Positions 21,153-23,952 of a DNA stretch of 64,000 bases are shown one piece after another. The DNA lies in assembly GCF_022760955.1 (NCBI RefSeq), contig NZ_JAKTNU010000002.1, forward strand, positions 62,001 to 126,000, in the 5' to 3' direction. A model generated the notes under the pieces. It made no database searches. It was not told the DNA's origin and saw nothing but the letters and a program-made list of their open reading frames with translations. The first letter of the stretch is position 1. Each line of letters begins with the position of its first letter. Origin of the DNA: Thermus neutrinimicus (lineage in GTDB: Bacteria; Deinococcota; Deinococci; Deinococcales; Thermaceae). The translations under genes were made by a program, and so were the position numbers.

Positions 21153-21830
21153 TTATCCCGGAAACCCCCTAAGGAAGGCTCCGGCAAGGACAGGGGCCAA
21201 AGCCCCCTCCAAGGCCTTCACCGCCAAGGGTACCCTCCACGCTCCTTTGTCCCGCACCCCTGCGGGGTTGGAGACGGCCCTAAGCTCCGCCCCGGGGATC
21301 CCCAAGGCCAGGCATGCCCGGGCAAAGGCAGCCCCCTCCATGCTCTCCACCCAGGCCCCCCAGCGCCAGGCCAGGGCCTCCGCCTCCCCTGGGGTCTCCG
21401 AGACCCGGTCCCGGGTGAGCCCCACCACCACCCGGAGGCCCAAGGCCCGGGCCAAAGCCCGGGTGAGGCCTGGATCCAGGGGGAAGCGGTTGTGGTAGGC
21501 CTTTCCCTCCACCTCCAAGGCGGGAAAGCCCAAGGGTTCCAGGCCCTCTTGGGTACCCAGGTCCGCCTCCACCTCCTCCCCCACCAGGACCACATCCCCA
21601 GGGAGGAGGCCCGAGCCCGGGTAAGCCCCGGCAATGCCGAACAGCAAGGCCTTCTCCACGGGGTTTTGGCTGGTCCAGGCGGCCAGGGTGAGGGCGGCGT
21701 TCACCTTGCCGATGCCGGTTTCCAGGTAAACGAAGCCCTCACCCCTAAGCCCCTTCCTTCCCAGGAAGGAGAAGGGTTCACCCCGGAGGAAGGGCGCCTC
21801 GAGGGCCGTGGGGGAGAGGAGCAACCACAT
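21153..21830 (-). CDS. mqnB: Futalosine hydrolase
   Basis: 225 residues from ATG 21830, which overlaps the stop of the upstream gene. MTAN/nucleoside-phosphorylase fold: GIGKVNAALTLAAW, GIAGAYPGSGLLPGDVVLV and the catalytic segment AWVESMEGAAFARACLALGIP. It releases hypoxanthine from futalosine in the chorismate-to-menaquinone (futalosine) route used by Thermus. Last gene of a three-gene operon. The alternative, a methylthioadenosine nucleosidase, is less likely given the futalosine-type substrate loop. Confidence 0.85.
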   Translation of the reverse strand: MWLLLSPTALEAPFLRGEPFSFLGRKGLRGEGFVYLETGIGKVNAALTLAAWTSQNPVEKALLFGIAGAYPGSGLLPGDVVLVGEEVEADLGTQEGLEPLGFPALEVEGKAYHNRFPLDPGLTRALARALGLRVVVGLTRDRVSETPGEAEALAWRWGAWVESMEGAAFARACLALGIPGAELRAVSNPAGVRDKGAWRVPLAVKALEGALAPVLAGAFLRGFPG

Positions 21831-23491
21831 CACTCCACCACCTTAAACCCCAAGGCCTCCGCCCGCTCCACGAAGAACTGGATGTTCTCCGCCTTCACCT
21901 CGCCCCCCAGGCTCTTGCGGTCAAAGGCCTCCTCCGCCGCCAGGATCATGGTCTCCGCCAGGCAGGCGGGGACCTGGTCGGGGGCACCGAAGTGAAGGTC
22001 TAAGGTGGCCTTGGCCCTCCCGGGAAGCCGCACCACACCCCCAGGGATGACCCTCACCCCGGGCACCTCCTTAACCGAGGGATGCACGTCGGGGGGCACG
22101 CCCTCGTCGTAGATCCAGGCCCCCGGCTTCACGTGCTCAGGGTGGATCACCGGATTGGGATCGCTGGTGGCGGTGAAAACCAGGTCCGCCTCCCGGATGG
22201 CGGCCACCTCGGTGGCCACCAGGATCTCGGGGGCTTGCCCCTTCCGCTCCAGGTTCTTCCGAAGGCTTTCCGCCGACCTTTCCAGGCGCTCCCGGTCCCT
22301 GCCCACCAGGATGAGCCGCCCCACCAAGGGGGCGATCTGCCGGGCGATGCCGAAGGCCACCACCCCATTCGCCCCCACCACCGCCGCCGTGGTGTCCCTC
22401 AGATCCTTTCCGCTTTGGGCGAAGTGGGCCAGGATGCCGGGAATAGCCGCCTTGACGGTGCCTGCGGTATAGGCTCCCCCGTTGGTCACCTCAATATCGG
22501 GCACCGCCTCCTGGACCTTCTTGCCCTTTTCCCCCACCACGCTCCAAAAGGCCCCTAGGCCCACCACCGTGGCCCCAAGCTCCTTGGCGAGCCGAGCCCC
22601 CTGGATGGCCCGCCTTACCGCCAGCTCCGGCCTGGCCTTGATCTGGTGGGGCAGGAGGGGGGCGGAGATGAGGTGGCATAGGACCTCCCTGCCATCCGCT
22701 GTCCTCACCCCCCTTACCTCCCCCACCTTCATGGGACGGAAGAGCTCCGCCAAACGCTCTATCCAGGCCTGCTTTAAAAGCCCCAGGCGCACCAGGGGCC
22801 TCGCCCAGCGGAAGCGGGGGCTTTGCCAGAAATCCTCCAGCGTGAGGGGATGGATGAGGAAGGCGCAAACCACCTGCCTATCCGAGGGCAGAGGCAGGGG
22901 GTTACCCAGCCTGGGCTCGGTGCCTTCCAGGATACGGCCCAGGTTTTCCTTGTAGCGCCAAAGGGCCAGGAGGAAAAGCAAGCCCCCAAGGGCCTTAGCC
23001 ATGGGGGTAAACCCGCCGAGAAAGAGGGCGCCAAAGAGGCCTAGGGGAAGCCCCAGGGCCCCCAAGGAGGCATAGCCCGTGAGGGCGTAGAGGGCAAGGC
23101 CCAAGGCCACCGGGACCATGGCCAGGACAGGCTCCAGGGGTAGCCCCGCCAGCACCCCCAAGAGAACCCCTGCCCCCTTGGCCCGAAGGGGCCAGGGATC
23201 CTGGAAAAAAAGGGGATACAGGTGGCCCAGGTAGACCGCCACCCCCAGGGCCAAAAGCTCCTCTACCCCAAGCCCCAAGCCCCTCCCCAACGCCAGGGGC
23301 AGATACCCCTTGGCGAAGTCCAGGAGGAAGGCCAAAAGGGTAAGGCCCGGCCCCAGCCGCCTCAAGGCCGTCTCCAAACCCAGGGTATAGGGGCTTGCCG
23401 TGCGCAGGTCCACCCCCCGCCGCCTGGCCAGCCAGTACCCCAAGGGCAAGGCACCCAGGGCATAGGAAAGGGGTAGGAGGACGAGGATCAT
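21830..23491 (-). CDS. PlsY-like membrane domain fused to acyl-ACP-reductase-like oxidoreductase
   Basis: 553 residues. Residues 1-195 align by eye with PlsY along the whole length (GHLYPLFF; C-terminal KENLGRILEGTEPRL) with about five or six membrane segments. However, the first catalytic motif SGNxGATN is replaced by ASPYTLGLE and the GGKGVAT motif by RAKGAGVLL. Residues 205-553 resemble the cyanobacterial long-chain acyl-ACP reductase (AAR): VRTADGREVLCHLISAPLLP, VVGLGAFWSVVG, VTNGGAYTAGT, NAD(P) motif AVVGANGVVAFGIARQ (369-385), and QVPACLAETMIL, whose Cys510 matches AAR's catalytic cysteine. Inference: a membrane-bound enzyme reducing acyl-thioesters or acyl-phosphate to aldehyde. It is coupled to mqnB and to the small exporter gene by 1-4-nt overlaps. 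There is no frameshift; the fusion is one clean frame. Confidence 0.82.
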   Translation of the reverse strand: MILVLLPLSYALGALPLGYWLARRRGVDLRTASPYTLGLETALRRLGPGLTLLAFLLDFAKGYLPLALGRGLGLGVEELLALGVAVYLGHLYPLFFQDPWPLRAKGAGVLLGVLAGLPLEPVLAMVPVALGLALYALTGYASLGALGLPLGLFGALFLGGFTPMAKALGGLLFLLALWRYKENLGRILEGTEPRLGNPLPLPSDRQVVCAFLIHPLTLEDFWQSPRFRWARPLVRLGLLKQAWIERLAELFRPMKVGEVRGVRTADGREVLCHLISAPLLPHQIKARPELAVRRAIQGARLAKELGATVVGLGAFWSVVGEKGKKVQEAVPDIEVTNGGAYTAGTVKAAIPGILAHFAQSGKDLRDTTAAVVGANGVVAFGIARQIAPLVGRLILVGRDRERLERSAESLRKNLERKGQAPEILVATEVAAIREADLVFTATSDPNPVIHPEHVKPGAWIYDEGVPPDVHPSVKEVPGVRVIPGGVVRLPGRAKATLDLHFGAPDQVPACLAETMILAAEEAFDRKSLGGEVKAENIQFFVERAEALGFKVVE

Positions 23492-23952
23492 CGCAGGTAG
23501 TTTAGCCCGGCCACCGCCCCACCCGTAAGGAGGAGGACGATGAGCCCAGCCGCCAGCACCCCCAGGGAGATGGCCAGGAGGGCGTAACGCCTTTTCAGAC
23601 CCAAGACCACGGAAAGCACCGCCCCGCTCCAGGCCCCAGTGCCCGGGAAGGGCACGGCCACGAAGAGGAAAAGGCCCAAGGCCCCTAGGCGCTGCACCTG
23701 CTCCTCTCCCCTCAGGCGCACCCGGGCCTCGAGGGCCGCCCAGAGCCTGGCCAGGAGGGGAACCCGGGTCAAAAGGGCCACCCCCCAGGGAAGGAGGAAG
23801 AGGGCCACCGGGGCCACCAGCAGGTTGCCCAAGAGGGCCAGCAGGAAGGCCTCCTCCGGGGAAAGCCCCAGGGCCACCCCCAAGGGAATGGCTCCCCTTA
23901 GCTCCACCACCGGCAGGGCAGCCACCAGGATCACGTACAGCTCAGGAGGCAT
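23488..23952 (-). CDS. Small multidrug-export-like membrane protein (COG2426)
   Basis: 154 residues with about four membrane segments. The early ELRGAIPLGVALGLSPEEAFLLALLGN and PGTGAWSGAVLSVVLGL stretches match the COG2426 family, annotated as small multidrug export proteins. First gene of the operon with the PlsY/AAR fusion and mqnB (4-nt overlap). The transport substrate is unknown; a lipid or lipid precursor is imaginable from context. Confidence 0.75.
   Translation of the reverse strand: MPPELYVILVAALPVVELRGAIPLGVALGLSPEEAFLLALLGNLLVAPVALFLLPWGVALLTRVPLLARLWAALEARVRLRGEEQVQRLGALGLFLFVAVPFPGTGAWSGAVLSVVLGLKRRYALLAISLGVLAAGLIVLLLTGGAVAGLNYLR

Follow-up and report, generated by a model that had tools for sequence, protein, structure and literature searches.

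A PlsY-derived membrane domain fused to an acyl-ACP reductase-like enzyme in Thermus neutrinimicus and other Deinococcota, with a possible role in phosphoglycolipid alkylamine synthesis

A membrane domain joined to a reductase

We analysed a 64,000-nucleotide stretch of the Thermus neutrinimicus genome (contig NZ_JAKTNU010000002.1, positions 62,001 to 126,000; hereafter the window), in which one gene encodes a PlsY-derived membrane domain joined to a domain resembling acyl-acyl carrier protein (ACP) reductase (AAR). The original prediction, made from the sequence, had placed this fusion at 21830-23491 in one clean frame. The coordinates were right and the strand is minus: the gene is a single uninterrupted frame of 553 codons running from 23491 to 21830, and the plus strand carries several stops across the same stretch. 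Since the fusion is conserved among its relatives, it is no artefact of annotation or assembly. Literature searches covering open-licence papers found no characterised protein of this architecture.

The C-terminal half is related to two known reductase families. The NCBIfam model for PigE (NF053554) matched the fusion with E = 5.7e-32, below its equivalog cut-off, and the AAR model TIGR04058 with E = 5e-15 (55.7 bits, short of an equivalog cut-off of 449.7), while phmmer aligned residues 255-529 with the solved AAR 6jzu (E = 7e-13); together these cover residues 255-550. As neither equivalog cut-off was reached, we regard the reductase half as a relative, not a member, of AAR or PigE. TIGR04058 gave no second match in this Thermus genome. 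A structure of the fusion predicted from 40 relatives was confident along its whole length (predicted local distance difference test, pLDDT, 91.5; predicted template modelling score, pTM, 0.86), and a Foldseek search returned AAR 6jzu as best match, over the reductase half (E = 9e-20; TM 0.76 by target).

The catalytic features of AAR are also in place, as had been predicted. Cys510, the C in QMFACFAEAM, aligned with Cys294 of the Synechococcus AAR (SeAAR), a position counted from the phmmer alignment, in which the aligned stretch ends at 313, and is a cysteine in 40/40 Deinococcota fusion relatives. The NAD(P) motif at residues 369-385 is intact and conserved, the Rossmann glycines G373, G376 and G381 being invariant in the same 40. 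In SeAAR, Cys294 accepts the acyl group from acyl-ACP or acyl-coenzyme A (acyl-CoA), and NADPH then frees the aldehyde (PMC7089970). By homology, it is well supported that the fusion would reduce an activated fatty acyl group to an aldehyde, the product first proposed for it.

The fusion resembles cyanobacterial AAR (TIGR04058; PDB 6jzu/6jzy) in the fold of its whole C-terminal half, its Rossmann site and the position of its catalytic Cys, and likely also in reducing an acyl-enzyme thioester to aldehyde; it differs in being ~25% identical, far under the equivalog cut-off, and joined to a PlsY membrane domain. It likewise resembles PigE, PtTamH and the AAR-aminotransferase fusions (COG5322 plus class III transaminase): PigE is its best sequence model, and the same chemistry to the aldehyde is predicted. 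In contrast to PigE and PtTamH, however, it has a membrane domain and no aminotransferase domain (none was found within the 553 amino acids by Pfam and NCBIfam searches), and its distribution is that of a housekeeping gene rather than of a natural-product cluster. PigE-like reductase-aminotransferase genes were also seen on Methylocystis and Thioclava plasmids (L264:3842-6385 and L265:3836-6370), in clusters with phosphoenolpyruvate/pyruvate-binding, methyltransferase and acyl carrier protein genes that look like prodiginine-type biosynthesis.

Table 1. Features of the fusion locus, in window coordinates
Feature	Position	Strand	Remarks
PlsY-AAR fusion gene	21830..23491	-	553 aa; ATG start at 23491, TGA stop at 21830-21832
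PlsY-derived membrane domain, residues 1-195	22907..23491	-	PF02660, Foldseek to 5xj7, residue map
Altered motif 1, residues 31-40, TASPYTLGLE for NVGSGNVGAT	23372..23401	-	Residue map
Altered motif 2, residues 103-112, RAKGAGVLLG	23156..23185	-	Residue map
AAR-like reductase domain, residues 205-553	21830..22879	-	NF053554, TIGR04058, Foldseek to 6jzu
Rossmann NAD(P)-binding stretch, residues 369-385, AVVGANGVVAFGIARQI	22337..22387	-	G373, G376, G381 invariant 40/40
Cys510 codon	21962..21964	-	Aligned with catalytic Cys294 of Synechococcus AAR; Cys in 40/40
COG2426-type small membrane exporter gene (Pfam Sm_multidrug_ex), upstream of fusion	23488..23952	-	
mqnB futalosine hydrolase gene, downstream of fusion	21153..21833	-	TIGR03664, 184 bits, cut-off 124.7
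Separate canonical PlsY gene, same genome	6825..7394 (limits approximate)	-	Protein-search match; all glycerol 3-phosphate residues kept

A remodelled PlsY domain

The N-terminal half derives from PlsY, so that both halves of the fusion have the support of sequence models and of the predicted structure. Pfam PF02660 matched residues 8-187 (E = 6.3e-26; 91.9 bits, above a cut-off of 24.1), the PlsY equivalog TIGR00023 fell short (59.8 bits, cut-off 137.2), and Foldseek matched the membrane half of the model to PlsY 5xj7 (TM 0.84 by target). The motif changes described in the original prediction were exact for this sequence. To place them, we compared 40 Deinococcota fusions, 13 canonical PlsY proteins and 6 Armatimonadota fusions, using the numbering of Aquifex PlsY from its structure paper (PMC5700162).

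In the Deinococcota fusions the glycerol 3-phosphate (G3P) residues are eroded: Ser35 is kept in 3/40, Ser142 in 7/40, His177 in 12/40 and Asn180 in 20/40, although position 45 (Arg45) remains basic in 37/40 (28 Arg, 9 Lys). All four eroded residues are mutation-sensitive in the Aquifex enzyme (PMC5700162), and the G3P site was intact in 13/13 canonical PlsY proteins, with Lys104 replaced by Arg once. Of the acyl-phosphate pocket (His92, Thr41 and the loop 102-107) much is kept, with His92 (His90 of this protein), Gly105 and a Lys or Arg at 104 each found in 40/40. Two changes within it are nearly uniform: Glu for Thr41 (Glu40 of this protein) in 39/40, and Arg for Gly102 (Arg103 of this protein) in 40/40 and in every other fusion examined. 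The domain is thus like PlsY (PF02660; PDB 5xj5-5xj9) in its seven-helix fold and in His92, Gly105, the basic residue at 104, Arg183 and Glu189, and unlike it in its lost G3P residues, its changes at 41 and 102, its attached reductase and its coexistence with a canonical PlsY.

Canonical PlsY and PlsX are each encoded separately in this Thermus genome, the former at G000:C2:68825-69394 on the contig, where the window begins at C2:62001. The separate PlsX means that acyl-phosphate should be available. Since the G3P residues have decayed where a separate canonical PlsY exists, the residue pattern suggests that the Deinococcota fusion is most likely no longer a G3P acyltransferase.

Other PlsY-like genes were seen as well. 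A second paralogue group in Deinococcota, comprising G000:C12:25553-26074 (L256) and its relatives (L253-L259), forms one clade with support 100/99, and here Thr41 is mostly Leu or Met, Ser142 mostly Ala and Asn180 mostly Asp. A fourth, shorter gene at G000:C2:180559-181035 (L277:5560-6036, minus strand) scores above the cut-off of the NCBIfam model PRK14401, 'membrane protein'.

Distribution and origin of the fusion

The predicted conservation across Thermus was borne out, the reductase half being present in 50/50 Thermaceae genomes; its extent is phylum-wide, however, and not a feature of Thermus. The reductase half was found in 107/111 Deinococcota genomes (84/85 among those at least 90% complete), and the PlsY half was also present in all 40 relatives aligned full-length, which were drawn from five families. 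A scan of genome contigs located 70 loci. One belongs to an Armatimonadota genome, in which the fusion is complete, and the rest to Thermaceae, Trueperaceae and related Deinococcota, including one metagenome-assembled genome labelled only 'bacterium'. Among 14 named control genomes the AAR model matched three, Synechococcus elongatus, Thermus composti and Deinobacterium chartae (a member of the Deinococcaceae), and gave no match in the other 11. No Deinococcus chromosome is evident among the 111 genomes, so the lack of a Deinococcus match there or in the GTDB scan does not amount to absence. Plasmid unnamed3 of Deinococcus sp. QL22 (L145:5001-5114) carries a 38-amino-acid remnant of the reductase domain, 60% identical, with a transposase gene next to it; this hints that the fusion gene is, or once was, present in a Deinococcus relative.

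The gene order around the fusion is far less conserved than the gene. In this genome the fusion shares four bases with each neighbour, ATGA where the COG2426 gene ends and the fusion starts and GTGA where the fusion ends and mqnB starts, and these overlaps make it very probable that the three form one transcript, in agreement with the three-gene operon first described. Both neighbours are kept only in Thermaceae and Marinithermaceae-like loci; in other families the fusion lies next to prmA/rsmE, dnaB or other genes. The two partners thus carry little functional information and were dropped as a functional clue, and the COG2426 exporter is probably functionally unlinked to the fusion. Separately, two overlapping frames, with the break near residue 500, take the place of the single fusion frame in Thermus parvatiensis RL and in another genome of the genus that may belong to the same species (L104, G113, G038); the cause is a frameshift or a sequencing error.

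Outside the phylum, a reductase homologue occurs in 271/291 Armatimonadota genomes, mostly stand-alone without a membrane domain and PlsY-fused in six. Each of these six gave a single match in the AAR search, so that none showed both forms, and none of the six has a PF02660 gene besides the fusion. All six fusions have Thr or Ser at 41 and keep Ser35, Arg45, Lys104, Ser142, His177 and Asn180. A tree was built for each half, with a root placed merely for display and, in the first, a bootstrap that had not fully settled. In both trees all fusions form one group (support 100/100 for the reductase half and 100/98 for the PlsY half) and the Deinococcota fusions one clade; in the reductase-half tree the Armatimonadota fusions fall outside that clade as two groups. 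Arg102 is common to all fusions, whereas Glu41 and loss of the G3P site are Deinococcota changes. On the simplest reading of these comparisons, both halves would trace to one fusion lineage in which a working PlsY was joined to the reductase once, and acyltransferase activity would then have been lost in Deinococcota, in which that task falls to a separate PlsY.

The stand-alone Armatimonadota COG5322-like reductase belongs to the same reductase family as the fusion (35% identity) but lacks the membrane domain and adjoins an uncharacterised gene for a protein of ~300 amino acids, which lies directly upstream on the same strand in 9/16 Armatimonadota loci. This partner matched no Pfam or NCBIfam family. 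It has a homologue, 53% identical, in this Thermus genome (L200:9282-10172, minus strand, contig G000:C5) and is present in 106/111 Deinococcota genomes and in 5/6 fusion-bearing Armatimonadota genomes; in Thermus and other families its gene is often upstream of efp-accB-accC. It appears to be family deino9.00587, a link made through annotation and distribution, not by sequence. Its predicted structure (pLDDT 91.6) gave only weak, two-domain Rossmann-like matches in Foldseek (TM about 0.4). The deino9.00587 family is found in 33/33 Deinococcus genomes, is annotated as quinate 5-dehydrogenase and is predicted to be important (PMC9425974).

A possible source of the phosphoglycolipid alkylamine

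The major phosphoglycolipid of Thermus and Meiothermus contains a long alkylamine in amide linkage to D-glyceric acid, and the literature searched does not explain the route to the fatty amine of this lipid, the signature of Thermus and Deinococcus. We propose that the fusion is a membrane-anchored fatty-acyl reductase whose aldehyde supplies that alkylamine, a proposal that in our judgement has about equal chances of being right or wrong. In this scheme Cys510 of the reductase half would receive an acyl group, donated either by acyl-ACP or by an acyl-phosphate bound in the pocket inherited from PlsY, and NAD(P)H would reduce the thioester to a fatty aldehyde. A separate pyridoxal phosphate-dependent aminotransferase would then convert the aldehyde to the fatty amine, to be amide-linked to D-glyceric acid in the phosphoglycolipid. 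The case for aldehyde as the product is strong, that for the alkylamine lipid as its destination moderate, and that for acyl-phosphate as the direct donor weak to moderate.

Several lines of evidence point this way. The alkylamine of T. thermophilus is iso-C17, of the iso type of its fatty acids, suggesting that an iso-C17 acyl group could become aldehyde and then amine without loss of carbon. Lipids of this type have been called a chemical marker for the lineage. Besides Thermus, they are reported or inferred for Meiothermus, Oceanithermus, Vulcanithermus and Rhabdothermus, in the last three from behaviour in thin-layer chromatography, and Deinococcus has a related lipid; the gene follows these taxa, with its 107/111 Deinococcota genomes and the AAR match in Deinobacterium. 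Furthermore, PigE and TamH, both relatives of the reductase, reduce acyl thioesters to aldehydes, which are then transaminated in concert with class III aminotransferases. TamH with TamA converts a C12 acid to the C12 amine, which TamH forms from C12-ACP, and other transaminase-AAR fusions are known, thermophilic ones included. This genome encodes five class III aminotransferases, two of which, recognised by eye, are presumably LysJ and HemL. One of the other three (L273:6558-7808, minus strand, contig G000:C12) is the most PigE-like, with PigE as its second-best model (409 bits), and is on its sequence a candidate for the transamination enzyme and no more. A class V aminotransferase gene beside the fusion in L045 was seen once only and was dropped.

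A number of points weigh against this proposal, chief among them that both substrate and purpose are assigned from homology and distribution. Because the gene is near-universal in the phylum, phyletic matching has little power, and Deinococcus itself contributed only the plasmid remnant, its chromosomes lying outside the search. In the loci compared across families, no aminotransferase gene is consistently found beside the fusion. Glu for Thr41 and Arg for Gly102 could indicate a ligand other than acyl-phosphate. Finally, Armatimonadota are not known to us to make the alkylamine phosphoglycolipid, and our literature search found no paper on their lipids that bears on the matter; as most of them carry a stand-alone homologue and six the fusion, the role of the reductase extends beyond this one lipid.

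It is unlikely, though worth serious consideration, that the PlsY-derived half is only a membrane anchor and the enzyme a plain acyl-ACP reductase, making aldehydes for another general use such as lipid repair or some other amine or aldehyde metabolite. That the characterised relative TamH requires acyl-ACP and did not use acyl-CoA, and that most Armatimonadota homologues do without a membrane domain, would be consistent with it; His92, Gly105, a basic residue at 104, Arg102 and Glu41 are, however, invariant or nearly so in 40 diverse sequences, beyond what an anchor needs.

Less probable still is the destination that the original prediction suggested, in which the same reductase makes an aldehyde or 2-hydroxyaldehyde that goes on to yield, by further reduction, the long-chain 1,2-diols or alcohols of some Thermus and Meiothermus lipids. 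As far as is known, such diols occur patchily and in minor amounts, whereas nearly all genomes of the phylum have the gene, which fits the alkylamine of the signature phosphoglycolipid better; nor is any gene for alcohols or diols conserved beside the fusion. In its favour, long-chain diols have been reported in Thermus (reference cited in PMC3398001), and Meiothermus ruber, in which 2-hydroxy iso-17:0 acid also occurs, is suspected of containing them in small amounts.

A long shot is that both halves serve one lipid, the AAR half making the aldehyde and the remodelled PlsY half, with its Glu and Arg, coupling the alkylamine to an acyl-phosphate of D-glyceric acid, of which 1,3-bisphosphoglycerate would be an example; one protein would then catalyse both the opening and the closing step of N-glyceroyl-alkylamine synthesis. 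We find it scarcely credible that, despite its altered motifs, the PlsY half of the Deinococcota fusion still works as a G3P acyltransferase, for although the overall fold and a basic residue at Arg45 are kept, and the Armatimonadota fusions with intact sites are the only PlsY of their genomes, the mutation-sensitive Ser35, Ser142, His177 and Asn180 are mostly lost and a canonical PlsY coexists in the same genome.

The fusion architecture appears to be a new variant built from known parts: an essential acyltransferase joined to a reductase, which apparently serves unaltered in Armatimonadota and has taken on a new role in Deinococcota. For the alkylamine step of the phosphoglycolipid it would provide one candidate gene, near-universal in the phylum and with its catalytic residue defined, which makes the question of how that lipid acquires its amine a testable one.
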